From an uncultured Prevotellaceae bacterium (GTDB lineage Bacteria > Bacteroidota > Bacteroidia > Bacteroidales > Bacteroidaceae): a DNA stretch of 64,000 nucleotides. Shown piece after piece: positions 9,209 through 63,822 of this stretch; positions within the stretch are counted from its first letter, which is position 1; each line of letters starts with the position of its first letter. A program made the translations under genes and the position numbers. The notes beneath the pieces were generated by a model. The model was given only the letters and a program-made list of their open reading frames with translations. It was not told the DNA's origin and made no database searches. The DNA is taken from positions 1-64,000 of the forward strand of contig CACXIP010000027.1 in assembly GCA_902767775.1 (NCBI GenBank), in the 5' to 3' direction.

Positions 9209-9292
9209 TTTGGTCGTTTGGTGGTTTGGTGGTTTGGTCGTTTGGTTGTTTGGTGGTTTAGTGGTTTGGTCGTTTGGTTGTTTAGGTTTTGG
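9209..9292 (+). repeat. Octamer array TTTGGTCG / TTTGGTGG
   Basis: About ten imperfect tandem octamers (TTTGGTCG, TTTGGTGG, TTTGGTTG, TTTAGTGG) start about 38 bp after the rprY stop codon. The same octamer family occurs after rny (38046-38126), between the partial HAD gene and mnmA (63730-63822), and in reverse complement at 9724-9772. Confidence 0.85.
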
Positions 9293-38045: not shown

Positions 38046-38126
38046 TTGGTTGTTTGGTCGTTTGGTCGTTTGGTCGTTTGGTCGTTTAGGCGTTTAGGCG
38101 TTTGGGCGTTTGGGTGTTTAGGCGTT
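38046..38126 (+). repeat. Octamer array TTTGGTCG / TTTAGGCG after rny
   Basis: Ten tandem octamers: TTTGGTCG units grade into TTTAGGCG and TTTGGGCG. The array begins immediately after the rny stop codon. Confidence 0.88.
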
Positions 38127-38255
38127 TAGGCCTGAATTCTTCAATTCGCTAATTCGGGATAATATAATCAGAAGTTTGCAAAGCGTCTGGGGGATTAGAT
38201 AAAACCTGGAGATTCCTAAATCATCTGGACAATCCCCAAATACTATAAAAAAGGA

Positions 38256-44262: not shown

Positions 44263-45057
44263 CTAATTCCTTGTTGGCATGCTCAAGATGTCCTTGATTA
44301 CTGTCTCCAGTTGTTCCAACGGCAGCATATTGGGACCATCGCTAAGGGCGTGGTCGGGGTCGGGATGGGTTTCGAAGAAGAACCCTGTGGCGCCGAATGC
44401 TTTGGCAGCGAGAGCCATGCTGGGCACGAAGCGCCGGTCACCGGTGGTGTGTCCTCCGCCACCTCCTGGTCGCTGCACGCTGTGGGTGCAGTCCATCACC
44501 ACTGTGGGTACAATATCGAGCATGTCGGGGATGTTGCGGAAATCCACCACGAGGTTGTTGTAGCCAAAGCTGCTGCCTCGCTCGGTGAGCCATACCTCGT
44601 TGGCTCCGGCGTCGAGAGCCTTCTCCACGGGATAGCGCATGTCGCGCCCGCTGAGGAACTGCGCCTTCTTGATGTTCACGGTGCGCCCCGTGCGGGCGGC
44701 GGCCGTCAGCAGGTCGGTCTGGCGACAGAGGAAGGCGGGTATCTGCAGCACGTCGGCCACCTCGCTGGCGGGCTTCGCCTGCCATGACTCATGGATGTCG
44801 GTGAGGATGCGCAGTCCGTAGCGTGACTTGATGTCGGCGAGCATCTGCAGTCCGCGCTCGATGCCTGGACCGCGGTAGGAGGCTACTGAGGTGCGGTTGG
44901 CCTTGTCGAAAGATGACTTGAAGATGATGTCGATGCCCAGATGGGCATTGATGGCTGTAATCTCCTCTGCCACTTGGCAAAGAACCTGTTCCGACTCGAT
45001 GACGCAGGGGCCCGCGATAAAGATGGGTGCGGTGCCCGTAAACGATGTCTTCTTCAT
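44263..45057 (-). CDS. kdsA: 3-deoxy-8-phosphooctulonate (Kdo-8-P) synthase
   Basis: The 264-residue TIM-barrel protein opens MKKTSFTGTAPIFIAGPCVI and has IIFKSSFDKANRTS, ILTDIHE and MDCTHSVQRPGG. It condenses arabinose-5-phosphate with phosphoenolpyruvate. The frame is open to 45396, but the extra part covers the promoter and repeats, so ATG 45057 is the start. Promoter: a family A-like cassette on the minus strand with TACCTTTG at 45089-45096. Confidence 0.95.
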   Translation of the reverse strand: MKKTSFTGTAPIFIAGPCVIESEQVLCQVAEEITAINAHLGIDIIFKSSFDKANRTSVASYRGPGIERGLQMLADIKSRYGLRILTDIHESWQAKPASEVADVLQIPAFLCRQTDLLTAAARTGRTVNIKKAQFLSGRDMRYPVEKALDAGANEVWLTERGSSFGYNNLVVDFRNIPDMLDIVPTVVMDCTHSVQRPGGGGGHTTGDRRFVPSMALAAKAFGATGFFFETHPDPDHALSDGPNMLPLEQLETVIKDILSMPTRN

Positions 45058-45088
45058 ATTATAAAATGTATAAGTTAGAAAACCTCCA

Positions 45089-45170
45089 CAAAGGTAGTGA
45101 AAGCAAAAAGCAATACAAAACAAAAAGGCTTTTTTTTGTTTTTCAACACGGAGGTACAGAGACACAGAGT
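45089..45170 (-). promoter_or_regulatory. Family A-like promoter cassette of kdsA
   Basis: Read on the minus strand: CTCTGTGTCTCTGTACCTCC, GTGTTGAAAAAC, an inverted repeat AAAACAAAAA/TTTTTGTTTT, GCTTTCAC and the -7 box TACCTTTG (plus-strand CAAAGGTA at 45089-45096). The CTCTGT-rich head matches the head of the GH28 cassette and the A/T hairpin sits at the same distance from the -7 box. Confidence 0.7.
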
Positions 45171-45247
45171 TTTTATGAATTTCCAAGTTTTTGCTTTGCC
45201 TCAAACAAATCACTTCTGATAATATTGTCCTGTGCTCAGTCTGTAGA

Positions 45248-45437
45248 GGGTGTGTCAAAAAGGAAAAACCTTGCGCGCCAGCAACTCCCCTCCCATGAAG
45301 GGGAGGGGCAGGGGTGGGGTATGTAACTTCTTGTTTTTCAGAAAAATAATTCCCCACCCCAACCCCTCCCCACGAGGGGAGCTCCATTCGGCTCACGGCG
45401 TTCTTTTCTCAAGTCGTTCATTATGTTTGACACACCC
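45248..45437 (+). mobile_element. MITE-like element with GGGTGTGTCAAA ends (copy 1)
   Basis: The 190-bp element begins GGGTGTGTCAAA (45248-45259) and ends TTTGACACACCC (45426-45437), perfect 12-bp terminal inverted repeats. It encodes nothing. Inside are GGGGAGGGGCAGGGGTGGGG (45300-45319) and CCCCACCCCAACCCCTCCCC (45352-45371), perfect G-quadruplex motifs on opposite strands. A second copy lies inverted at 55988-56171. Confidence 0.82.
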
Positions 45438-45734
45438 CCAAGGCAATTTGTGTTCAATTACATGATAATTATATGTTATATCTTCACACGAATGCCCATG
45501 AATCGCTCACGAATTTTTCAAAAATTATTATGTCCCGAATTGGCGAATTAAAGAATTTAGATAGCATTGAAGTCAATTTGTGTTCAATTACATGATAATT
45601 ATATGTTTTATCTTCACACGAATGCCCATGAATTGCTCAATTTTTCAAAAATTATTATGTCCCGAATTAGCGAATTAGAGAATTTAGATAATTGAAGTTT
45701 CTCTCCACAATACAAGAATGTCTGAGGTCAGTCT

Positions 45735-45758
45735 GTAGAGACGCAATATATTGCGTCT
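45735..45758 (+). repeat. REP palindrome with GTAG foot (copy 7)
   Basis: GTAG then AGACGCAATATATTGCGTCT, preceded by TACAAGAATGTCTGAGGTCA; almost identical to the copy at 19348. Confidence 0.85.
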
Positions 45759-46078
45759 CAGTGATATACATGGATTTCAATGGTATTTTTAATGGGAGAC
45801 GTTATCGTCCCGAATTATCGAATTGAAGAATTTGGATAATATTAATTCTCTAATTCTTAAATTCGTGATAGTGATAAGTTGGAATGAGCTTTATTCCATG
45901 CAATCAGGGATAATGGCTTAACTTCAGAGTGAAGCGATAACTACTTAACTACTTCTATTTCTATCTGCTGCGACAAAAAGAGAAGCACCCGATGCCACTT
46001 GTCGCATTTCCATGTTTTTGTCGCAACGAAAAGATAAAAAACGAGGGAAAAAAGAACCTGTGTGAGCAAAAACCATAT

Positions 46079-46086
46079 TATCTTTG
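46079..46086 (+). promoter_or_regulatory. -7 box TATCTTTG of the DUF4468 gene
   Basis: TATCTTTG lies 54 bp before ATG 46141 and overlaps the start of a longer in-frame ORF (46084), supporting the later start. Confidence 0.65.
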
Positions 46087-46140
46087 CAATGTCAAACGAC
46101 AAAAAGTGAAAACAAAAGTAAAACAAAAAAAGATACAACA

Positions 46141-46881
46141 ATGAAAAAGATTACAACAATTTGGATGATAGCCGCCGCTCTTTTCCTCGGCGCAGTAAAT
46201 GTTCAGGCACAGGTGATGAAGTCAGCCGACCTCGAGAAATATGCCAAGCAACGCTATGGTGACAGATGGCTCGATGCAGCGAAAAATCTTTCTGCTGAGC
46301 TCAGCCTCGACAAGAATGAGTCGCTGACCTATCAAGAAATCATCAATGCTCCGGGCAAGACAAAACAGCAACTTTATGTCGCACTCAACTACTGGGTGAC
46401 CGCCACTTTCAAGGACCGTCAGGCCATCACCCTCAACGACAAGGATGCCGGTTGCATCATCGTCACCTCGACCATCAAGAATATTGCCGAGCACATGGGT
46501 ACTTTGAAGAAATACTCCGTGAATATCACCCCCATCATCCGTCTCGACATCAAGGACGAGAAAGTACGCGTCACCTTTACCGTGCAGAACTACGACATCC
46601 TGTCCGACCTCAACTCTGGATGGCTGACTTTAGCCCTTGCCGATGATGATAAAGCAGTTTTTGGCGACTCGAAGCGTAAGGCTGACGACAAGACCAACTA
46701 TTTTCTCTACGACGAGCAGTGGGAGATTGCAAGGCACTATCCGTTTGTGGAGAAGGATGCCCAGAAACGCACCTGTGCCAAGGCACTGGTGATGACTCAC
46801 GCCTACTCCAACGCCATCATCGACAAGGTGGAGGAAGCCATAAAGAATGGTCTCGTGGGCAACGATGACAGCGATTGGTGA
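46141..46881 (+). CDS. Secreted DUF4468-domain protein
   Basis: The 246-residue protein has a signal peptide (MKKITTIWMIAAALFLGAVN VQAQ) and a domain (about 55-150) matching DUF4468, which has a TBP-like fold: LYVALNYWVTATFKDRQAIT, then RLDIKDEKVRVTFTVQNYDI. Function is unknown; the domain is frequent on secreted Bacteroidetes proteins. It has its own promoter (46079-46086) and a terminator hairpin (46906-46943). Confidence 0.85.
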   Translation: MKKITTIWMIAAALFLGAVNVQAQVMKSADLEKYAKQRYGDRWLDAAKNLSAELSLDKNESLTYQEIINAPGKTKQQLYVALNYWVTATFKDRQAITLNDKDAGCIIVTSTIKNIAEHMGTLKKYSVNITPIIRLDIKDEKVRVTFTVQNYDILSDLNSGWLTLALADDDKAVFGDSKRKADDKTNYFLYDEQWEIARHYPFVEKDAQKRTCAKALVMTHAYSNAIIDKVEEAIKNGLVGNDDSDW

Positions 46882-46905
46882 TGAACAATTCAACACAGAG
46901 AACCG

Positions 46906-46943
46906 GAGGTACAGAGTTTTTCTTTGTACCTCTGTTTCTTTTT
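46906..46943 (+). terminator. Terminator after the DUF4468 gene
   Basis: GAGGTACAGAG (46906-46916) pairs with CTTTGTACCTC (46922-46932) with one mismatch, followed by TGTTTCTTTTTG. Confidence 0.65.
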
Positions 46944-46944
46944 G

Positions 46945-47064
46945 TGGAAATACTATGTGAGCAATGGGTTTACTCCCCAACAAGTAGCAGGATTTGTGGG
47001 AGGATTTGTTAGAGAGAGCAATCTTAATCCAAGTGCATTAAATAAGGTAATTACAGACTATTAG
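46945..47064 (+). pseudogene. Phage tail-lysozyme fragment
   Basis: In the frame from TGG 46945 the sequence reads WKYYVSNGFTPQQVAGFVGG, FVRESNLNPSALNK, then a stop (TAG 47062-47064). The pattern 'GFTPQQVAGFVGGFVRESNL-NPSA' is the start of phage lysozyme 2 (tail-lysozyme) domains. There is no start codon, the frame runs out of a terminator hairpin, and the rest of the domain is missing, so this is a scrap of a phage gene. The 23-bp inverted repeat begins within its last codons. Confidence 0.6.
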
Positions 47065-47071
47065 ACCCCAA
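47049..47071 (+). repeat. Left 23-bp inverted repeat of a ~1.5-kb segment
   Basis: AATTACAGACTATTAGACCC-CAA matches the reverse complement of 48533-48555 at 22 of 23 positions. The two repeats bracket 1507 bp that contain three small unrelated ORFs. No target-site duplication is visible. Confidence 0.7.
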
Positions 47072-47105
47072 GTGGCAAAATGAATATCTATACAGTAATG
47101 AGCAG

Positions 47106-47519
47106 TCATTGGTTTGGGTGCTCATTATCGTGGTAGTACATCCTTTTCAAATCAATATAGTAGCGATTAGTTCCTTGGATTCTGCTCACAGTATACAACA
47201 TATCTGCAAGTTCTAACAGTCTGTTGTTTCTCGTCTCAAACCAAAAATACCTTACCCCTAATTCGTACAGACTATTATAGAAAAACCGCTGTAGGCGAAA
47301 CATAATCTCAAGGTTATTAACAGCAGAAATACTTTTTACCTCATAACAACGTCTATCATTAAGTATATTAAGATTGTGAACAACAGAAACAATTGATGCT
47401 ATTTCTATATCACCATTATATGCAATTGCAGATATTTGCCTACCATCATATTCCACAGATAACCTCATAACTACATAATCTACGTTATAAACTGCTCTTG
47501 TATTCTTCTTGTAATCCAT
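47106..47519 (-). CDS. Hypothetical protein inside the inverted-repeat segment
   Basis: The 137-residue protein starts MDYKKNTRAVYNVDYVVMRL, is rich in Tyr, Asn and Arg, and has no signal or TM segment. I recognise no domain. It is AT-rich compared with the core genes. A minus-strand TACCTTTG box (complement at 47536-47543) lies 17 bp upstream of ATG 47519, which supports a real gene. A TTG start at 47528 is less likely. Confidence 0.6.
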   Translation of the reverse strand: MDYKKNTRAVYNVDYVVMRLSVEYDGRQISAIAYNGDIEIASIVSVVHNLNILNDRRCYEVKSISAVNNLEIMFRLQRFFYNSLYELGVRYFWFETRNNRLLELADMLYTVSRIQGTNRYYIDLKRMYYHDNEHPNQ

Positions 47520-47535
47520 ATTAGACAATTTTTGG

Positions 47536-47543
47536 CAAAGGTA
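47536..47543 (-). promoter_or_regulatory. -7 box TACCTTTG of the 47106-47519 gene
   Basis: CAAAGGTA on the plus strand, 17 bp upstream of ATG 47519 on the minus strand. Confidence 0.55.
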
Positions 47544-47591
47544 GGCTTTTTATCTATGATGGAGATATTTATTTTTAAAAAGTTTGTTAAT

Positions 47592-47927
47592 ATGAACAGA
47601 AGAATAGAAAGGGTTGTTTCGCAAACAATAAAAGAGTTCATCAATGAAAACTGTACAAGGCCATCTATCATAAAAGAGAACGATGGAGATGATATGAGCA
47701 TCTATAAAGAACTTGATGATAAGGTGTATGATATTTGTTATCGTCACGGTTTCAATGTTCAAACGAGGGTAGGCAACGATAAAGCATATTACGCATTCTT
47801 TGTTGCAGATGATAGATTACCTAAAGTACAAGAAGCAATTCAAATGTTAGAGGAACTTGGACTTAGAAGAATTAGTAATGGGTCATTAAGCGGACAAATA
47901 CATTATTATACTATAGATTTTCACTAA
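47592..47927 (+). CDS. Hypothetical protein with short basic N-terminal helix
   Basis: The 111-residue protein starts MNRRIERVVSQTIKEFINEN, an amphipathic helix, followed by a soluble alpha/beta domain (VYDICYRHGFNVQTRVGNDK; YAFFVADDRLPKVQEAIQML). The helix resembles the one in the next gene (RIV..AVKRVLRES). In-frame starts at 47556 and 47559 are possible. I recognise no family. Confidence 0.5.
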   Translation: MNRRIERVVSQTIKEFINENCTRPSIIKENDGDDMSIYKELDDKVYDICYRHGFNVQTRVGNDKAYYAFFVADDRLPKVQEAIQMLEELGLRRISNGSLSGQIHYYTIDFH

Positions 47928-47954
47928 ATAATGAATTAAAATACATAATGTTAC

Positions 47955-48374
47955 ATAAAAAGAAAGATAAGACTGACGGAATCAGACCTCCACAGAATCG
48001 TGAGAGGTGCAGTGAAAAGAGTATTGAGAGAATCAGACGAAATGTGGCAAGGAGGCCCGCCTCGCTCTTATTATGACGGCCTTGCCGATATGAATGATTA
48101 CGGCACTATAAGTACTTTGAAGCGTTTGGCTGCATGGTTTAATCGTAATGGAACACCAAGCGAAGGCGTGTTTCCCAAGGACTTACCTCCATATATGAAA
48201 GAGGTGAGTGTGTTAAACGACAGTGTCTTTTACGGGGCATTTACAGGTGATATGATTATCATTAGCGATAAAGAGCCAAACAAATATCTATATTTTGAAG
48301 ACGACGGATATGGCGCAGGTTATGCAGATGTTAGAACGGCAAACTTTACTGACAAAGATTATAAACCTTGGTAA
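47955..48374 (+). pseudogene. Phage-type small protein with LTESDLHRIV N-terminal motif, no clear start
   Basis: The open frame reads KRKIRLTESDLHRIVRGAVK, RVLRESDE, then a 100-residue domain (STLKRLAAWFNRNGTPSEGV; YLYFEDDGYGAGYADV). The motif LTESDLHRI(V/I)xxxVxRVLxE recurs, from memory, at the N-termini of gut Bacteroidetes phage and mobile-element proteins. No ATG precedes the motif in frame (GTG 48000 would cut it); ATG 47948 is one frame off. It therefore looks frameshifted or uses an unusual start. Confidence 0.5.
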
Positions 48375-48532
48375 TTAAGCAGATTCACACATCTTTAATT
48401 CACCCCACGTGACAAACAATCCAATCGACTTCTCGAACATATGGGCGAATCTCTCCGATTCGCTCATTTTTTTCGTGTTCCAGCGATATGACGCCTCGTA
48501 GATATTTCGTATTTATATTTAGTTTTGTTCGT

Positions 48533-48555
48533 TTGGGGTCTAATTGTCTGTAATT
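48533..48555 (-). repeat. Right 23-bp inverted repeat of a ~1.5-kb segment
   Basis: TTGGGGTCTAATTGTCTGTA-ATT, the partner of 47049-47071. Confidence 0.7.
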
Positions 48556-48604
48556 TCCAAAAGAATATACTAATCCTTAAACATTCTATAGCAATCCTGA
48601 GCAG

Positions 48605-50434
48605 ATGGGTGTTATAGAGCAACTGGCACAGCAGAACGCACAGATGCGGGCTGCTTTTGAGAAGCAGGAAGCAGACAGACTGTTGGCTGCTCAACAACAG
48701 GCAAAGGCAGAGGAAAGAGCATTACAAAGGAATAGGACAAATCTTGCCCTTCAGATGGTAGGCATGATGGGAGGGGATGACAGCGATAATTCCTATTATG
48801 ATATGTGGAAGCCTTTGATTAACATGGGTGCTTATGGTGGACATCTGTATGATGGATGGACTGAGCCTACTGGACTGATGAATAGAAAGAGGCTTGATGA
48901 TATTCAAAACTTAAATAATGATATTCTTGATTTTGAGAAAAATGCCAGCAGCAACAATGAATTTTCTACCATAACAGATGCTGAAACAGGAGAAGTTGGT
49001 CAAATAATGGGTATAACTCCAGATGGCACTTATAGGACAGTTTATCCAAGTGGTACTTACAACATGACTTTGGATCTTCCCAATACTGATGTTTTGGGAA
49101 GCAAGGCTCGCATGAAAGCAGCGAGAGGCTTGGAGGCTCCTTTGCTTGGTGGAGAACTGAAGGATAATCAATACAGGACAATGCCCACCAACAGTGAGGC
49201 CAATGCTTTTGCTGATGCTTGGACTGAGCAGACTGCTCCTACTGTAGGACACTTGATATCTGCTGGCCTTAAGCCTCTTGACCTTATAACACCAAGCAGA
49301 TATGTAGGTTTGCTTGACAGTGACAACAAGAATGGTTTCCTGCATCTATTTGATGAGGATAACAGGGGATTCTTCATAGGCAATGACCCTACAAAACCTT
49401 TCAATAAGCATTTCCATGATGAGCATCCTATATTGGCAGGTATTGGGAATACTGCCCTTGATATTCCTGCAGGCATGGCTGCTGGCTGGGCTATTGGAAA
49501 GGGTTATAATGCTGCAGCACCTTATGTTGAAAATGCATACAATACAGGGAAAAATGTTGCTACTACTTTTGAGGAGATTATGCCAGAAATAGGTAATTGG
49601 GCTGCTGATAAAATGCATTTTCCTGAATTAAAGGGTTTTGTCAATAAAAATGGTCAATACTATGAAGCACGGTTTAATCCTTTTCAAAATAAAACACTTC
49701 AAGAAAAAATACTTGAAGATGGATATTCTCCAAATTTAAGACGTGGAGAACCTCGACTTATTGAAAACGGAGGTATCCCAAGATATTATTATAATAAAAT
49801 AGATTCAAATACAGGAGTTAAAGAAACTGTAGGTATCAATCCTTATGCAGGTGGTAGGATCTTTGAATATAATGTTACTTCATCTACTCCAGATGGCATG
49901 GATTTGGGTATATCCAGTATAAAGAGATCATCTTATGGATATAAGTCTCCAGGTCCGTACAAAATGGGAAACCAATTTGATTTGGCACTAACAGCAGGAA
50001 CTGTGCCAACGGTAGATAAAAATGTATTGAAGTCATTCGGTGCAGGAATACAGAGGTTTGCCCCAAAGGGAGCGAGGATAACTGGTGATGGGGCCCCTTC
50101 TATAGCTGATAGAGTTTTAAATAATTTGGAGAGCAAACATTACTGGGATGCTCTGAAATTGGCAGCAAGAAGACCAATGCTACCAACCAATAATGCTTTA
50201 AGTACTGATTCCTATAGGTACCTAGTAGGTTATGGAACTAAGTATCCTAAATTCTCTACTTTCTATGATGGATACGACACCAGTTTTAACAATGCTGGTG
50301 TAAAATATGTGGATGACATAAATCTTCTAAAAACTTCACCAGAAACTTTGAATGACATTTATCTTGGTTTGGATGAAAACTACCCTGAAATTATCAATGA
50401 TAGATTGCCACATCCTTGGATAAAAAAGAAATAA
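48605..50434 (+). CDS. Large phage- or toxin-like protein of unknown function
   Basis: The 609-residue protein has an N-terminal coiled coil rich in Gln and Ala (VIEQLAQQNAQMRAAFEKQE to about residue 42), a Gly/Met segment, a hydrophobic stretch (about 285-305: NTALDIPAGMAAGWAIGKGY), and a Tyr/Asn/Gly-rich C-terminal half. I recognise no domain. The open frame extends upstream without ATG (YSNPEQ before MGVIEQ), so it may be the 3' part of a longer phage gene. AT-rich composition and the adjacent phage fragments suggest a virion or cargo protein; a polymorphic-toxin-like origin is the alternative. Confidence 0.55.
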   Translation: MGVIEQLAQQNAQMRAAFEKQEADRLLAAQQQAKAEERALQRNRTNLALQMVGMMGGDDSDNSYYDMWKPLINMGAYGGHLYDGWTEPTGLMNRKRLDDIQNLNNDILDFEKNASSNNEFSTITDAETGEVGQIMGITPDGTYRTVYPSGTYNMTLDLPNTDVLGSKARMKAARGLEAPLLGGELKDNQYRTMPTNSEANAFADAWTEQTAPTVGHLISAGLKPLDLITPSRYVGLLDSDNKNGFLHLFDEDNRGFFIGNDPTKPFNKHFHDEHPILAGIGNTALDIPAGMAAGWAIGKGYNAAAPYVENAYNTGKNVATTFEEIMPEIGNWAADKMHFPELKGFVNKNGQYYEARFNPFQNKTLQEKILEDGYSPNLRRGEPRLIENGGIPRYYYNKIDSNTGVKETVGINPYAGGRIFEYNVTSSTPDGMDLGISSIKRSSYGYKSPGPYKMGNQFDLALTAGTVPTVDKNVLKSFGAGIQRFAPKGARITGDGAPSIADRVLNNLESKHYWDALKLAARRPMLPTNNALSTDSYRYLVGYGTKYPKFSTFYDGYDTSFNNAGVKYVDDINLLKTSPETLNDIYLGLDENYPEIINDRLPHPWIKKK

Positions 50435-50469
50435 CTATCTTAGAAATTTGGTAATAAATATGATTTCAT

Positions 50470-50477
50470 TATTTTTG
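50470..50477 (+). promoter_or_regulatory. -7 box TATTTTTG of the small membrane-protein gene
   Basis: TATTTTTG lies 29 bp before ATG 50507. Confidence 0.45.
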
Positions 50478-50506
50478 CAAATAATTCCAAATCAAAACTA
50501 CAATAT

Positions 50507-50701
50507 ATGACAAGGTATCGGAAATTAAGAATACTAGTAAAAATTCGTCATGCATATAGAGGTGTAATGACTATATTCGTTGTATGTTTTATGTTTTTAA
50601 TATATATTCTTTTTTATCCTATCACCTATTTTAAAAGAAATGATACAAGCCATTTTTGGGACAATGCTGTAGATAAAAACGGCAATCCATTAAAGCAATA
50701 G
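50507..50701 (+). CDS. Small single-pass membrane protein
   Basis: The 64-residue protein has a basic N-terminus (MTRYRKLRILVKIRHAYRG), one TM helix (about 20-41: MTIFVVCFMFLIYILFYPIT) and a short polar tail. It follows the 48605 gene by 72 bp with its own -7 box. A possible immunity-type partner of that protein is speculation only. Confidence 0.5.
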   Translation: MTRYRKLRILVKIRHAYRGVMTIFVVCFMFLIYILFYPITYFKRNDTSHFWDNAVDKNGNPLKQ

Positions 50702-50754
50702 TTCTTACAGACAACCTCCACATCATAGAGAATGGCAAACTTGTGAAGCAGTAA
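50702..50754 (+). pseudogene. C-terminal scrap of a phage-like protein
   Basis: A frame reads LTDNLHIIENGKLVKQ and stop (TAA about 50752-50754). It has no start codon and looks like the tail of a lost gene. The assignment rests on its protein-like composition only. Confidence 0.3.
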
Positions 50755-50764
50755 CCCCATCATC

Positions 50765-50790
50765 AAAGGCAGGCATCCCTGCCTTTTTTC
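50765..50790 (+). terminator. Terminator AAAGGCAGG/CCTGCCTTTTTT
   Basis: AAAGGCAGG-catc-CCTGCCTTTTTTC is a compact stem with T run after the phage-like scrap. Confidence 0.8.
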
Positions 50791-50881
50791 ATTTTGTAAA
50801 ATAATGTACCCAGAAATATTCAGTAAATTTATTCCACATTAGCACTTTTATTAGACATTTTGCCAAATTTACTTTCCTTTA

Positions 50882-50889
50882 TATCTTTG
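50882..50889 (+). promoter_or_regulatory. -7 box TATCTTTG before the portal fragment
   Basis: TATCTTTG lies 27 bp before ATG 50917, so the truncated portal gene still has a promoter. Confidence 0.5.
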
Positions 50890-50916
50890 TCTCCAAAGTA
50901 ATAAAAGATTGTTTTC

Positions 50917-51240
50917 ATGGCGTATAATGCAATAGGAGGCTTTCCTCCGCAACAGTTATCTTTCAGCAGGAAAAATAAAGCATGGAGGCGTAAGTGTGTG
51001 GATTTTGAGGATGACCACAGCCTTCTCCATTATCATCTGACAAGGAAATCTGTATTTGCAATGAGGGTTAATTATGATCTTCTGAATGGCAAGATACACA
51101 TGGCTGACTTGAAGATGCTGCTTAATCCCTACTCATTGGATGCATCATTTATTCCTGATGCCATACAGCATTATCCAATTCTGAACTCTAAGCTTGAGGT
51201 GCTTAGAGGTGAGGAAAGTGAGAGGTTGTGTTATCTTTGA
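50917..51240 (+). pseudogene. Truncated crAss-like phage portal protein (N-terminus only)
   Basis: The 107-residue ORF reads MAYNAIGGFPPQQLSFSRKN, KAWRRKCVDFEDDHSLL, then RKSVFAMRVNYDLLNGKIHM and AIQHYPILNSKLEVLRGEES. From memory this is the conserved opening of portal proteins of crAss-like (Crassvirales) phages, which are about 700-800 residues long. The similarity stops at ...RGEESER exactly where the family A promoter array begins (about 51226), leaving four junction residues. It is a broken phage gene joined to host DNA. Confidence 0.65.
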
Positions 51241-51419
51241 CTATCGTCGAAGATAGGCTGCGGCTCGGAAGAGCAAAACCAAAAAAATGCTTTTTTGTTT
51301 TGCTTTTCACTCGCCTTGTGTTAACTTTGACTGTCGTCGAAGATAGGCTGCGGCTCGGAAGAGCAAAACTAAAAAAATGCTTTTTTGTTTTGCTTTTCAC
51401 TCGCCTTGCACTATCTTTG
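51226..51419 (+). promoter_or_regulatory. Family A tandem promoter array upstream of GH3
   Basis: Three -7 boxes are spaced exactly 90 bp apart: TATCTTTG 51232-51239, TAACTTTG 51322-51329, TATCTTTG 51412-51419. Each 90-bp unit contains CTATCgtcgaaGATAG (CTGTC with a G-U pair in unit 2), GCTCggaaGAGC and the hairpin GCAAAAC(C/T)AAAAAAATGC-TTTTTTGTTTTGC, then TCACTCGCCTTG. The last unit is nearly identical to the GH28 cassette. Confidence 0.88.
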
Positions 51420-51427
51420 CATAATAC

Positions 51428-53809
51428 ATGATTATGAAGATGAAAAACCGCTGCATGTTGGAAAAACGAATACTTCTCATCTTGCTGGTGCTTCTTTCTG
51501 TCTCAATGTCTTGGGGCAAGGAGGAAGAACCCAATCTGCCTGCTTACAAGGACAGCAGACTTGCACCAGCACAGCGGGTGGCAGACCTGCTGCCACGGAT
51601 GACGCTCGAGGAGAAGGTGGGGCAGACGCTCTGCCTGCTCGGTTGGAACTGCCATGCACGGTTGGAAGATAAGACAAGGCTGACCGATGAGTTTTATACC
51701 GACATCGACAGCCTCCACTGCGGTATGTTTTGGGGTGTCTTCCGTGCCGATCCCTGGACACAGAAAACCCTTGTCACAGGTCTTAATCCCCGTCTGGCAG
51801 CAGAAACAGCCAACGCCATGCAGCGCTATGCGATGGAGCACACACGGTTGGGCATCCCGCTGTTCTTCGCCGAGGAAGCCCCCCATGGACATATGGCGAT
51901 AGGCACCACGGTATTCCCCACAGGTCTTGGCATGTCCGCCACGTTCGACACCTGTCTCATGGCAAAAGTAGGGAAAGCCATCGCCTCAGAGATACGCCTC
52001 CAGGGCGGTCATGTCAGTTATGGACCGGTGCTCGACCTCGTGCGCGACCCACGGTGGTCTCGTGTGGAGGAGACGATGGGAGAGGACCATGTACTGACAG
52101 GCGAGATGGGAGCCGCCCTGATACATGGCATGGGAGGCGGACATTTGGAACTGTCTGACGCCACACTCGTCACACCGAAACATTTCATCGCCTATGGAGC
52201 ATCTGAAGGAGGACTCAACGGCAGTCCTGCCTCAATTGGAACACGAGCTCTCCATGCCAACTTCTTACCGCCGTTCCGAAAAGCGGTGGAGGCTGGCGCA
52301 CGCTCCGTGATGACCGCCTACAACTCCGTCGATGGCGTGCCCTGCACGTCGAATCCCTATCTCCTCCGCGATGTGCTCTGCGGACAGTGGGATTTCCGTG
52401 GTTTTGTCGTCTCCGACCTCTATAGCATCAACACCCTGTCGAGCGACCATCATGTGGCGGAATCATGGGATGAAGCGGCTGTGCTGGCAGCAAGGGCAGG
52501 CGTACATGTTGACCTCGGCGGACTGGCGTTTGCCCAACTGGTGAAGGCGGTGCGTGAGGGTAGGGTGGAGGAACGCCTTGTCGATGAGGCAGCCTCGCGC
52601 GTGCTTCTGGCGAAGTTTGAGATGGGCCTTTTCGACCATCCCTATGTCACCCCCAAGGCTGCTGAAAAAGGTGTGAGGACCGCCGACCACCTTGCTCTTT
52701 CCCGACGGGTGGCACAGGAGAGCATCACCCTGCTCAAGAATAAAAACCACATATTGCCGCTCTCGCGCGACATCCGCGTGGCAGTGGTGGGACCCAATGC
52801 TGACAGCCGCTACAATCTGTTGGGCGACTACACCGCGCCTCAGTCCGACGACCAGGTGGTGACAGTGCTCGAGGGTATAAGAGGCAAGGTGTCTGCATCG
52901 CAGGTGGAATACGTCAGGGGATGTGCCATCCGCGACACCACATTCAACGAAATAGCGCAGGCGACAGCCGCCGCACGACGCGCCGATGTGGTGGTGGCGG
53001 TGGTGGGCGGTTCCAGTGCCCGTGATTTCCGTACCTCTTACGAGAAGACGGGAGCCGCCTCGGAGGCCAACACCGTGAGCGACATGGAGTGCGGCGAGGG
53101 GTTTGACAGGGCATCGCTGTCGCTTATGGGAAGGCAGGAACAGCTGCTCCATGCCCTGCGGCAGACGGGCAAACCGCTGGTTGTGGTCTATGTGGAGGGG
53201 CGTCCTCTCGACAAGACATGGGCTGCTGGTGAGGCTGATGCACTGCTCACCGCCTATTATCCTGGACAGCAGGGAGGGGCAGCCATCGCCGACGTGCTGT
53301 TTGGCGACTGCAACCCGGCTGGTCGACTCAGCGTCTCCGTCCCGCGTGGTGTCGGGCAACTTCCTGTGTACTACAACCGTTTGCGTTCCGCCACCCACGA
53401 ATATATTGATATGACCACCAAACCCCTCTTTGCTTTCGGCTACGGACTGAGCTACACGAAGTTTGAGTACTCCGACCTCCGTGTGAGGGATATGGGTGAC
53501 GGACGTTTTGAGGTGTCGTTTGATGTGGCCAACGTGAGCGGTATGGATGGCGACGAGGTGCCGCAACTCTATTTGACCGACGAAGTGGCATCCGTGGTCA
53601 TGCCGGTGATGCAGTTGCGCCACTTCTGCCGCATCCACCTCAAAGCAGGGGAGCGCAGTAGGGTATCGTTCTTGGTTGGGGGCGAGGACTTTGAAGTGGT
53701 CACCCCCGATTTGCGGCATATGGCAGAGCCAGGCACATTCGAGGTGATGGTGGGTGCTGCATCCGATGACATCCGCCTGAGAGAAAAAATAGTATTTAAA
53801 CCAAACTGA
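51428..53809 (+). CDS. Secreted GH3 beta-glycosidase
   Basis: The 793-residue protein has a signal peptide (MLEKRILLILLVLLSVSMSW after up to nine extra residues), the GH3 TIM-barrel domain with nucleophile Asp in GFVVSDLYSI (about 330), PKHFIAYGASEGG (Lys-His), a GH3 C-terminal domain (VAVVGPNADSRYNLLGDYT) and a C-terminal fibronectin-III-like domain. It removes beta-glucose or beta-xylose residues in the periplasm. The nearest -7 box ends 8 bp before ATG 51428, so a start at 51440 or 51455 is plausible. The GH92 gene begins 2 bp after its stop. Confidence 0.92.
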   Translation: MIMKMKNRCMLEKRILLILLVLLSVSMSWGKEEEPNLPAYKDSRLAPAQRVADLLPRMTLEEKVGQTLCLLGWNCHARLEDKTRLTDEFYTDIDSLHCGMFWGVFRADPWTQKTLVTGLNPRLAAETANAMQRYAMEHTRLGIPLFFAEEAPHGHMAIGTTVFPTGLGMSATFDTCLMAKVGKAIASEIRLQGGHVSYGPVLDLVRDPRWSRVEETMGEDHVLTGEMGAALIHGMGGGHLELSDATLVTPKHFIAYGASEGGLNGSPASIGTRALHANFLPPFRKAVEAGARSVMTAYNSVDGVPCTSNPYLLRDVLCGQWDFRGFVVSDLYSINTLSSDHHVAESWDEAAVLAARAGVHVDLGGLAFAQLVKAVREGRVEERLVDEAASRVLLAKFEMGLFDHPYVTPKAAEKGVRTADHLALSRRVAQESITLLKNKNHILPLSRDIRVAVVGPNADSRYNLLGDYTAPQSDDQVVTVLEGIRGKVSASQVEYVRGCAIRDTTFNEIAQATAAARRADVVVAVVGGSSARDFRTSYEKTGAASEANTVSDMECGEGFDRASLSLMGRQEQLLHALRQTGKPLVVVYVEGRPLDKTWAAGEADALLTAYYPGQQGGAAIADVLFGDCNPAGRLSVSVPRGVGQLPVYYNRLRSATHEYIDMTTKPLFAFGYGLSYTKFEYSDLRVRDMGDGRFEVSFDVANVSGMDGDEVPQLYLTDEVASVVMPVMQLRHFCRIHLKAGERSRVSFLVGGEDFEVVTPDLRHMAEPGTFEVMVGAASDDIRLREKIVFKPN

Positions 53810-53811
53810 AT

Positions 53812-55983
53812 ATGAAAAATCTGACAATCATCGCCTTCGTCTTGATGGCATTCCTTTCCCCCATGGTGGGACAGGCAGCCGACAGACTCACCGACTATGT
53901 CGACCCTTATATCGGGACAGGGGGGCACGGCCATGTGTTTCTTGGAGCCAATGTTCCCTTCGGCCTGGTTCAACTCGGTCCCACCGAACCGTGCCGTGGA
54001 TGGGACTGGTGCTCCGGTTACCACTACAGCGACTCCGTACTGATAGGGTTCGGACACATGCATCTGAGTGGAACGGGCATAGGCGATTTGGGCGATATCG
54101 CTTTCATGCCCGTCGCTGATGCCTCGAAGCGCAGCACGCTCTTCTCGCATGATGATGAGCGTGTCAGACCAGGCTATTACTCCCTGTCGCTCAGGGAAAG
54201 CGGCATAAAGGCGGAACTCACCGCCACGGCACGCTGCGGCATGCACCGCTATACCTTCCCTGAAAGTCAAAAACAGGCGATGATGCTCATCGACCTCGAC
54301 CAAGGCATTGGATGGGACGGCACCGCGGCATGCGGCATACAGACGAAAGGCGACCGCATGGTGGTGGGCTACCGCCGCTCCAAGGGATGGGCGCGCGACC
54401 AGCATGTGTTCTTCGCCGCTGAGTTCTCTCGTCCCGTCACTGTCACTCCGCTGAATGGCGACACCCTCATCATGGTGAGCACGCCCAACGACCGCCAGCC
54501 ACTGCTCGTCAGGGTGGGCATATCTGCGGTGAGCACCGAGGGAGCATTGCGCAACCTGCAGGCAGAGATGCCGACATGGGACTTCGATGCTGTGGCGGCA
54601 GCTGCCGACAAGGCATGGGAGGAGCAGTTGGCGAAGATGACCATCACTACCAGTGATGCCCGTGCCCGCCGCATCTTCTACACCGCACTCTACCATACCA
54701 TGGTGGCGCCTTCGGTCTTCGGTGATGTCGACGGACACTACAGGGGTGCCGACGGACAGGTGCATCAAAGCGACTTCGTCTGCCACACCACCTTCTCGCT
54801 GTGGGACACCTACCGCGCCGCCCATCCCCTGATGACCCTCATCCATCCGGAGCGGCAGCGTGACATTGCCCAGACCATGCTGCATATCTGCAGGGAACAG
54901 GGGAAGTTGCCCGTGTGGCATCTCATGGGAAACGAGACCGACTGTATGGTGGGCAACCCAGGTATTCCTGTCGTGGCGGATATCGCCATCAAGGGTTATG
55001 ATGTGGATGTCAGGGAGGTGTTGGAGGCTGCCAGAAAGTCGGCTATGCGCGATGAGCGTGGACTGCGCCTGCTGCGCGAGTATGGTTACCTGCCCTTCGA
55101 CCTCGATTCGGAGAATGAGACGGTGGCGAAGTGCATGGAATATGCGCTGGCTGACTATTGCGTGGCGTTGGTGGCCACCCTGCCGGGCAGCGGCGACACC
55201 GACGGTTCTGTCTATAGGTATTTCAAGGAGCGGAGTCAGGCATACCGCCACTATTTCGACCCGGTGACGCGCTTTATGCGTGCCTGCGACAGCAAGAATC
55301 GATGGCGTGAGCCCTTTGATCCTTTCAAGGCTGAGGGAGAGGTAAAGGACTACACGGAGGGCAACGCATGGCAATATCTGTGGCTGGTGCCGCACGACGT
55401 GCCGGAACTGGTTGGTCTGCTTGGTGGCGACAAGCGCTTTGCCCAAAAGCTTGACTCACTGTTTGTCGTGGAGGGCAACCTCGGTGAGGAGGCACCGCCC
55501 GATATCTCCGGACTCATCGGACAGTATGCCCATGGCAACGAGCCCAGTCATCACATCATCTATCTCTACAACTATGTGGGGATGCCGTGGAAGGCGGCAC
55601 CATTGCTGCGCAAGGTGTTTGGCGAGATGTATCACGACCAACCCGACGGATTGTGCGGCAACGAGGATGTGGGACAGATGTCGGCATGGCATCTCCTCTC
55701 ATCGATGGGACTTTATCAGGTGACGCCGGCCGGAGGAAGGTTTGTTATCGGTTCGCCGCTGTTCGACAGGGTGGACATGCGGGTGCGCGACGGCAAGACC
55801 TTCAGCGTGGTGGCGCACAACAACAGCAAGGACAACATCTATGTGCAGTCGGCACGTCTCAACGGGCGCAAGTACACCAAGTCGTATGTCGACTTCCCCG
55901 ATATCGTGGCTGGTGGCACCCTCGAACTCTTCATGGGAAGCAAACCCTCCAAATTTGGAACGTCGAAGAAAGACAGACCGTAA
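53812..55983 (+). CDS. Secreted GH92 alpha-mannosidase
   Basis: The 723-residue protein has a signal peptide (residues 1-22) and GH92 hallmarks: TDYVDPYIGTGGHGHVFLGA, VPFGLVQLGPTEPCRGWDWC, SGTGIGDLGD, and C-terminal FSLWDTYRAAHP, NEPSHHIIYLYN and GNEDVGQMSAWHLLSSMG with the likely catalytic Glu/Asp. GH92 enzymes are calcium-dependent exo-alpha-mannosidases of N-glycans or yeast mannan. Overlap-close arrangement with GH3 (2 bp) indicates one operon expressed from the promoter array. Confidence 0.93.
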   Translation: MKNLTIIAFVLMAFLSPMVGQAADRLTDYVDPYIGTGGHGHVFLGANVPFGLVQLGPTEPCRGWDWCSGYHYSDSVLIGFGHMHLSGTGIGDLGDIAFMPVADASKRSTLFSHDDERVRPGYYSLSLRESGIKAELTATARCGMHRYTFPESQKQAMMLIDLDQGIGWDGTAACGIQTKGDRMVVGYRRSKGWARDQHVFFAAEFSRPVTVTPLNGDTLIMVSTPNDRQPLLVRVGISAVSTEGALRNLQAEMPTWDFDAVAAAADKAWEEQLAKMTITTSDARARRIFYTALYHTMVAPSVFGDVDGHYRGADGQVHQSDFVCHTTFSLWDTYRAAHPLMTLIHPERQRDIAQTMLHICREQGKLPVWHLMGNETDCMVGNPGIPVVADIAIKGYDVDVREVLEAARKSAMRDERGLRLLREYGYLPFDLDSENETVAKCMEYALADYCVALVATLPGSGDTDGSVYRYFKERSQAYRHYFDPVTRFMRACDSKNRWREPFDPFKAEGEVKDYTEGNAWQYLWLVPHDVPELVGLLGGDKRFAQKLDSLFVVEGNLGEEAPPDISGLIGQYAHGNEPSHHIIYLYNYVGMPWKAAPLLRKVFGEMYHDQPDGLCGNEDVGQMSAWHLLSSMGLYQVTPAGGRFVIGSPLFDRVDMRVRDGKTFSVVAHNNSKDNIYVQSARLNGRKYTKSYVDFPDIVAGGTLELFMGSKPSKFGTSKKDRP

Positions 55984-55987
55984 GAAT

Positions 55988-56171
55988 GGGGGCACTTCAA
56001 ATATAATGAACGGCTTGAGAGAAGAATGCCGTGAGCCGAATGGAGCTCCCTTCCCCACGCGTGGGGAGGGGTTGGGGTGGGGAATTATTTTTCTGAAAAA
56101 CAAGAAGTTACATACCCCACCCCAGCCCCTCCCCTTCATGGGAGGGGAGTTGCTGGCGCACTGACACACCC
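55988..56171 (-). mobile_element. MITE-like element (copy 2, inverted)
   Basis: Reverse complement of the 45248-45437 element. The right end TGACACACCC (56162-56171) matches the terminal repeat; the left end (GGGGGCACTTCAAA) is decayed. It carries GGGGAGGGGTTGGGGTGGGG at 56063-56082 and CCCCACCCCAGCCCCTCCCC at 56115-56134, and lacks about 17 bp next to the terminal repeat. Confidence 0.8.
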
Positions 56172-56403
56172 TGTTTTTTTGATTGTTCAACGACAAGATA
56201 ACATATGGTCATCCCATCAATGACTCACAAAACTTTTGTATGCATATTATTTAGGTTCTTGGATTGTTTACATAATCACCAATTGGGTATTAAGGAGTAA
56301 AATACATAGCATTAAAGTGATAGAAAAAGGGGCATTTTGCACTCTATGATAACAAACACATTTTTTAATCATCAATATTTCTCACTCAAAGATAGACTAA
56401 GTA

Positions 56404-57102
56404 ATGGAAAAGAAAGAAAAAACACAAATCTACAACCTTGTGGTGCTCGACAAGAGCGGTTCAATGGGATGTATCCGCAGGGCTGCTATGGAAGGCTTCA
56501 ATGAGACTCTCGCAGGTATCAAAAAAGCACAACAGGAATATGCTGAGACACAGCAACACTACATCTCTCTCGTCACCTTCTGCAGTTGTTCAAGAGACGC
56601 TGTATACGACAAGGTGCCCGTCGCCGAGGCCGTGCCGCTCACATTGAATCAGTATGAGCCTTGCTGCTGCACTCCGCTTTATGATGCCATGGGGTTTGCG
56701 TTGACCTCACTGAGGGCACATGTGAAGGACATCGATGACGTGGCTGTGGTGGTGACAATCATTACCGATGGCTTGGAGAATGCATCTAAGGAATATAACA
56801 GAAACAGCATCCGTGCTCTCGTGGACAGCCTCAAGAACGAGGGATGGTCGTTCACCTTCATGGGCGCCAATCAGAACTCCTCTGAGGTGGCTCAGTCACT
56901 CGCCATCCGCAATTCCCAGGACTTCGATTACTCAGACGAAGGCATCGAAAGGGCTTATAGGAGAGACCGGTCATCAAAGATGTCATTCTTCGACAAGTTG
57001 AACTTCTCCTATTTTCAGCGTAACTGTATGTCAAAAGAGGAGCGCAGACATAAAAACACTGAGTTGGCCGACGAGGCTTTCGATGAGACCATTGACGTGT
57101 AA
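56404..57102 (+). CDS. Cytoplasmic von Willebrand factor A domain protein
   Basis: The 232-residue protein is essentially one VWA domain with an intact MIDAS: DKSGSMG (about 16-22), later Thr in CTPLYDAMG and Asp in IITDGLEN. It contains an unusual run of Cys (FCSCSRD, CCCT). It has no signal peptide. Such stand-alone VWA proteins resemble TerY; partner unknown. It is flanked by the MITE and a strong terminator. Confidence 0.85.
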   Translation: MEKKEKTQIYNLVVLDKSGSMGCIRRAAMEGFNETLAGIKKAQQEYAETQQHYISLVTFCSCSRDAVYDKVPVAEAVPLTLNQYEPCCCTPLYDAMGFALTSLRAHVKDIDDVAVVVTIITDGLENASKEYNRNSIRALVDSLKNEGWSFTFMGANQNSSEVAQSLAIRNSQDFDYSDEGIERAYRRDRSSKMSFFDKLNFSYFQRNCMSKEERRHKNTELADEAFDETIDV

Positions 57103-63729: not shown

Positions 63730-63822
63730 TAATTGGTCGTTTGGGGGATTGGTCGTTTGGTCGTTTGGGGGATTGGTCGTTTGGTCGTTTGGGGGGTTGG
63801 TCGTTTGGTCGTTTGGGGGATT
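63730..63822 (-). repeat. 24-bp tandem array between HAD gene and mnmA
   Basis: Plus strand: TTGGTCGTTTGGTCGTTTGG plus GGGA, repeated about 3.5 times (3 octamers each). The unit is a multiple of three, so a frame crossing it reads NPPNDQTT repeatedly. It fills the whole gap between the two minus-strand genes. Confidence 0.88.

Follow-up and report, generated by a model that had tools for sequence, protein, structure and literature searches.

The 90-bp tandem repeat in front of the GH3-GH92 operon probably consists of two tandem units of a dispersed Bacteroidales promoter element that is palindromic and non-coding (probability about 0.72). It was found in a stretch of 64,000 nucleotides from an uncultured Prevotellaceae bacterium, here called the window. 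On this reading, RNA polymerase with the primary sigma factor would start transcription at the gene-proximal unit, which is box 3 in this array. The tandem units would come from duplication, and the palindrome would matter at the DNA level, when the element arises or spreads, and not in a leader of the mRNA.

The array in front of the GH3-GH92 operon

A repeat search detected a 90-bp direct repeat pair (51226-51315 and 51316-51405; 97% identity), and Tandem Repeats Finder reported 51226-51408 with a period of 90, 2.0 copies and a score of 345. A preliminary description of this DNA had claimed three repeat units, each with a TAnnTTTG box. The three boxes (51232, 51322 and 51412) are indeed spaced exactly 90 bp apart, but only two units are present, and box 1, at the left edge, is not preceded by one. 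TTG is found at 51226, 51316 and 51406, the ends of the duplication, and this is what slippage could leave. Repeat copy 2 stops 22 bp upstream of the first GH3 ATG. The features are as follows.

50917-51240, + strand: 107-aa ORF, similar in sequence to the N-terminal part of portal proteins from crAss-like phages
51226-51315, + strand: repeat copy 1 (90 bp), from repeat searches
51232-51239, + strand: box 1, TATCTTTG then A; overlaps the stop of the upstream ORF (from the sequence)
51232-51255, + strand: junction hairpin 1, formed by box 1 and CGAAGATA around a 4-nt loop (from folding)
51248-51329, + strand: palindromic unit 1, 87.6 bits with model R1; left arm not fully matched by box 2
51299-51302, + strand: TTTG before box 2, gap 19, putative -33 element
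51316-51405, + strand: repeat copy 2 (90 bp), 97% identical to copy 1, from repeat searches
51322-51329, + strand: box 2, TAACTTTG then A; core consensus only (from the sequence)
51338-51419, + strand: palindromic unit 2, 94.9 bits with model R1; left arm pairs with box 3
51389-51392, + strand: TTTG before box 3, gap 19, putative -33 element
51412-51420, + strand: box 3, TATCTTTG at 51412-51419, TATCTTTGC with the next base; putative operon promoter
51428-53809, + strand: GH3 gene; a later ATG is possible at 51434 or 51440 (sister sequence)
53812-55983, + strand: GH92 gene, directly after GH3
1720-1797, + strand: single unit copy upstream of a GH28-domain gene in the same window (DNA search and model R1)

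The junction at box 2 (TTGTGTTAACTTTGACTGTC) is a copy of the junction at box 1 (TTGTGTTATCTTTGACTATC) and not of that at box 3 (TTGCACTATCTTTGCA). If the tandem units arose by duplication, the internal junction here would be a copy of the left junction (TTGTGTTA.CTTTGACT.TC) and not of the final box, and the internal box would therefore be off consensus.

The 107-aa ORF is 61.5% identical to bajarodcaudo virus 1 over residues 1-104. Its similarity to portal proteins stops at residue 103-104, at the left edge of the array, suggesting that phage DNA or a phage remnant abuts the promoter repeat. Elsewhere in the window, three arrays (9209-9283, 38052-38131 and 63733-63822) consist of 8-bp units near TTTGGTCG/TTTGGTGG.

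Anatomy and distribution of the palindromic unit

The array unit is not private to this array but a member of a dispersed palindromic element of ~80 bp. A BLAST search hit 41 places in the same genome, a draft of 73 contigs. From 27 units we derived a consensus palindrome with co-varying pairs and, from it, the covariance model R1. Scoring of the best 150 of 2799 first-look candidates yielded 122 R1 matches at E<=0.1, corresponding to 114 distinct places in 82 loci (58 single, 16 double and 8 triple). A start codon follows the unit within 100 nt in 74 of these loci and within 400 nt in 80 (longest-ORF rule). When the first-ATG rule was applied, a start was found within 100 nt in 78/82 loci rightward vs 25/82 leftward, and in 32/80 at a control point 400 nt upstream on the same strand. 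Because the units that went into R1 carry a box, the link to the box is partly built in, while the link to the start codon is not. The downstream genes mostly differ and, judged by eye from translations, include metG-, thrS-, dnaB- and greA-like genes. In 21 of the 82 loci (L063, L078, L090, L095 etc.), a second dispersed repeat, AACACAGAGA...TCTCTGTGTT (CTCTGTG/CACAGAG), lies no more than 260 nt upstream, and at some loci it seems to sit inside a unit; at C10:141293 it appears, by eye, to split the left arm of a unit.

Two main unit types, A and B, both have CTCG in each arm and the right end TTTTG-19-TAnnTTTG, and an A/T-rich stem-loop lies within the unit. The -7 box is one arm of the palindrome: the left end of the unit is its complement, with one constant G.T pair, and co-varies with it, including at nn of TAnnTTTG. 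The pairing analysis covered 49 distinct units of type A and 31 of type B, taken from this genome and from the sister species. The unit finder required TAnnTTTG, GAA/AAA plus TA/CA at the left side, and CTC and TC within the left and right arms, respectively; these constrained columns were excluded from the pair statistics, the exception being the partner of L20 (A) or L18 (B), which was limited to C or T. Watson-Crick pairs made up 628/686 stem cells in type A and 313/341 in type B. In 2000 column shuffles the mean fraction was 0.64 (A) and 0.73 (B), with maxima of 0.70 and 0.77, and slid partners gave at most 0.38. With redundancy cut at 85%, Watson-Crick pairs made up 265/294 (A) and 156/176 (B) cells.

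Between matched sister units (17 units, 345 cells), paired positions showed 35 single changes vs 1 double change, which indicates no strong current constraint on pairing. Such an excess of single changes would be expected of a palindrome that is well-paired when formed and decays later. Fast repair of the palindrome by template switching was also considered and found to be unsupported by the same counts.

As in MITEs, the unit is short, non-coding, multicopy and adjoins genes, and it has terminal inverted repeats, its ends pairing over 8-9 bp and co-varying. With respect to a target-site duplication, TTTG/A is present in the left flank of 72/84 units, an arrangement that tandem duplication also explains.

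The element is widespread within the order. R1 matched at E<=0.01 in 22/24 genomes of the same genus (own genome included) and in 2/16 others; at E<=1e-5 and with stricter filters, it matched in 9 of 149 genomes of the order, again including our own. Furthermore, a strict two-part pattern recovered at least 118 stretches from GTDB genomes. Among the matches listed, the pattern-bearing stretches belonged to Bacteroidales taxa, to candidate genera or, by title, to an 'uncultured bacterium', and included Paraprevotella, Barnesiella, Alistipes, Muribaculaceae and Mediterranea. Paraprevotella clara YIT 11840, P. xylaniphila YIT 11841, Mediterranea massiliensis and Prevotellamassilia timonensis are carriers that have been cultured. 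The 128 order-wide matches listed comprised 14 followed by another unit, 2 without sequence and 112 testable copies. Among these listed matches, a start was found within 150 nt in 103/112 testable copies (median, 26), compared to 55/113 in the leftward control. Searches of open-access papers yielded no description of the palindromic element.

Turnover and routes of spread

Copies at different loci of the genome are similar to each other up to the promoter box. In 29 locus pairs with at least 88% identity over at least 70 bp, the similarity extends to both final boxes; it ends 0-2 nt after the box in 20 of the pairs and 3-13 nt after it in the rest. The highest identities were 96.7% (150 bp) and 94.5% (164 bp). 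As in mobile promoters, like promoters precede different genes in all 29 pairs, with no common coding sequence.

Orthologues of GH3 were detected at E<=1e-250 in 31 of 299 genus genomes. At the GH3 promoter, covered in 30 of these 31, R1 found two units here and one in the sister species (G255); one further locus, L124, has two R1 units elsewhere in its GH3 locus. The difference in copy number that the preliminary description had predicted for relatives was thus observed between species, with two units here vs one at the 92%-identical sister orthologue. The 90-bp pair is probably later than the split of the two species, or one copy was lost in the sister. By eye, copy number also varies between close species at other loci, with one genome compared per species.

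By downstream gene, 47 of the 82 loci were matched to G255 loci picked for carrying units, and 41 of these 47 were measured. The median identity was 0.93 downstream of the box, 0.97 in the right half and 0.90 in the left half of the last unit, and upstream of it 0.73 in the first 60 bp and 0.60 in the following 60 bp (chance, 0.57). The last unit is mostly kept, and the sequence upstream of it changes. It was conserved in 38/41 comparisons, the loci having been chosen because both species carry units, and this indicates slow unit turnover at the sister-species distance. At C2:94318, C31:43816 and C5:192916, the unit differs from that in G255 and the downstream sequence matches; a further such case was seen by eye at C10:141293. 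Queries with pieces of 14 unmatched loci yielded 8 matches in G255, and 6 of these were aligned: by eye, two of them have half-units and four have no full unit at the gene. One of these four is the counterpart of C1:138051, where the sister has a plain TTATCTTTGCA. Upstream of metG, R1 units were present in 5/29 genomes (3, 3, 1, 1 and 1 matches) and marginal in a sixth, and many unit-less metG loci have, by eye, a -7 box at a similar place. At metG of one genome (G018; L222:1331-1461), a unit-like match with marginal scores lies inverted beside the box of the gene. The number of units thus varies from species to species, and in some cases a unit is missing or has been exchanged and a -7 box is retained.

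Ectopic gene conversion together with replication slippage, acting alone on old promoter repeats with no dedicated mobility, is a possible though rather doubtful explanation of these data. The loci have ~80 bp of homology in common, TTG stands at the ends of the duplication, and the last units are conserved as described. In line with this, the window copy at 1720 closely resembles, by eye, the GH3 unit of the sister. However, these processes alone leave presence vs absence of the unit at metG and at C1:138051 without explanation.

A single-strand DNA transposon of the IS200/IS605 or REP type is another candidate explanation, which we judge unlikely. The comparison is based on the layout of IS608. 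In the unit, the same order of box, linker, complementary arm, hairpin and box is found: the upstream box would be the target, the left arm CGAAGATA the pairing guide, the stem-loop the recognised hairpin and the right box a second cleavage site. The co-variation of arm and box at nn of TAnnTTTG, the similarity between loci that mostly ends at the box, and the unit-free site in the sister at C1:138051 are consistent with such a transposon. So are the TTTG/A within 24 nt before the unit in 72/84 cases and a second small hairpin before the unit, which has a net stem of at least 8 in 47/84 cases vs 15/420 with shuffled flanks. However, tandem duplication would explain the upstream box just as well, and the transposase data argue against a Y1/HUH enzyme as the driver. 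Two Y1_Tnp genes were found in the genome, L210 (G000:C12:51197-54568) and L209 (G000:C35:235-3573); the palindromes near them (TAGAGACGCAATATATTGCGTCTC and CGCCCTGAAAGGGC) differ from the unit, and neither locus contains the R1 match, even at E<=10, that a REP/RAYT pair would have. These loci are possibly REP-type systems of this genome in their own right. Co-occurrence was negative as well: a homologue of one Y1_Tnp was present in 2/9 unit-bearing vs 73/140 other genomes of the order. Furthermore, 8/22 unit-bearing genomes of the genus showed no Y1_Tnp (G003, G005, G008, G012, G017, G019, G020 and G023), and six of these eight are at least 90% complete. A search of the Y1_Tnp family found no parent transposase with the ends of the unit. 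Carriage by phages was likewise looked for: viral contigs contained no exact match to the junctions when searched with one exact pattern.

A more far-reaching proposal, which we consider improbable, is that the element is an order-wide, self-spreading Bacteroidales promoter that homes to -7 boxes. Its left arm would be a DNA guide complementary to the target box, and each insertion would replace the upstream promoter half, restore the -7 box and the start site, and so rewire many housekeeping and metabolic genes. If the main reading, a dispersed promoter element, is right, many Bacteroidales genes, including metG of this species, would be driven by a dispersed palindromic element, in contrast to promoters evolved in place, and promoter differences among gut species could be explained in part. 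The co-variation of arm and box would then suggest an as yet unknown mechanism that places DNA at promoters.

Promoter boxes, stems and known systems

The right end of the unit is a predicted Bacteroidales -33/-7 promoter. TTTG is, as we assume, the -33 motif and 19 nt its spacing. In the array, TTTG is found at a 19-nt gap before boxes 2 and 3, but not in the 40 nt before box 1. The published -7 consensus of Bacteroidales is given as TANNTTTGY (PMC12632263). The window contains 36 matches to it vs 12.9 expected. Two of them are in the array: box 3 on the + strand and a match on the minus strand at 51363. Boxes 1 and 2 are followed by A and so lack the Y, and only box 3 fits. An E. coli-type promoter scan gave one match vs 0.5 in shuffles.

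Box 3 is typical of gene-proximal boxes. In multi-unit arrays, the full TANNTTTGY was present in 21/23 gene-proximal vs 3/31 internal boxes (Fisher, 8e-10), and the core TANNTTTG in 22/23 final vs 15/31 internal boxes; in single units, 47/58 boxes fit the full consensus. One mixed-strand locus, C13:73471, is excluded from these counts. The preliminary description had assumed that each copy adds a promoter, so that three working tandem promoters, changing in number, would tune glycosidase expression. We regard this as quite improbable. The three boxes at 90-bp distances, the copy number of 2 here vs 1 in the sister and the TTTG before boxes 2 and 3 are consistent with it. However, TTTG is missing within 40 nt before box 1, neither box 1 nor box 2 has the Y, and 28/31 internal boxes in this genome deviate from the full consensus. 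With box 3 as the only full match here, three working promoters are unlikely, and only this box looks functional. Box 2 keeps the core plus TTTG and might still fire. On the preferred reading, tandem promoter-like boxes should be taken for tandem promoters only with caution.

The inverted repeats described earlier in the array are real, but the stems are larger than had been described. In the stem at junction 1, which is 10 bp long, GT plus CGAAGATA is the partner of box 1 plus AC (DNA z, -4.7); the hairpin at junction 2 is weaker (z, -1.95). Unit 2 folds end to end (DNA z, -4.6; RNA z, -6.4), and unit 1 folds more poorly (-1.9 and -2.9). A G-U change in CTATC had been taken as kept pairing. 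It is no evidence of this, because 4/5 of the CTATC bases fall in the loop of the stronger junction hairpin.

The stems show no preference for pairing in + strand RNA, and the 'structured leader segments' proposed earlier are not a likely constraint. Stem mismatches (G.T:A.C) were 17:17 in type A and 4:15 in type B; in a wider pair set without the constant pair, the ratios were 44:31 (A) and 8:17 (B). Nothing in these ratios points consistently to the + strand RNA as the form under selection, type B leaning the opposite way, and the frequencies favour a palindrome in DNA over an RNA leader. Rfam gave no match at the gathering score within 45000-57000, and no terminator-like site was found within 51100-51500. 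Sixteen sub-gathering Rfam matches in 50900-51500, the best to a microRNA family (E, 1.8e-5), were taken as chance matches to A/T-rich hairpins. In five other unit loci, Rfam gave one sRNA family match, ~290 nt beyond the nearest unit. In a Barnesiella-like genome, the FopS paralogous sRNA (RF04319; L244:1570-1638) lies close to a unit array. A structured leader or attenuator working in mRNA read through the array is therefore very improbable despite the RNA fold of the last unit, given these mismatches, the position of the hairpin upstream of the final promoter, and the Rfam and terminator results.

The preferred reading, a doubled member of a dispersed promoter element, can be compared with four known systems. 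REP/RAYT repeats are likewise described as short dispersed palindromes (PMC6006769, PMC3733652), but no Y1 transposase flanked by the present unit was found in this genome. The invertible promoters described in Bacteroides are similar in that a Bacteroidales promoter lies between inverted repeats (PMC12632263, PMC8748976); here, in contrast, an ORF lies downstream of the box end in 80/82 loci, and the one inverted match, at L222, is marginal. BrickBuilt MITEs of Porphyromonas gingivalis are reported as intergenic Bacteroidales repeats that have small inverted ends, contain tandem repeats and show promoter activity (PMC4596501). According to the same source, their leader and tail are separated by a 23-nt minisatellite, ATCC 33277 has 19 copies, and the promoters are bidirectional in E. 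coli (PMC4596501). By that description, the present element is set apart by self-palindromic units of ~80 bp with one full predicted promoter end. Putative mobile promoters (Matus-Garcia et al. 2012; van Passel et al. 2014) are among the closest known systems. Compared to them, the present element has a defined palindromic unit in which the -7 box forms one arm; its stems co-vary, its units occur in tandem arrays, and its spread is order-wide.
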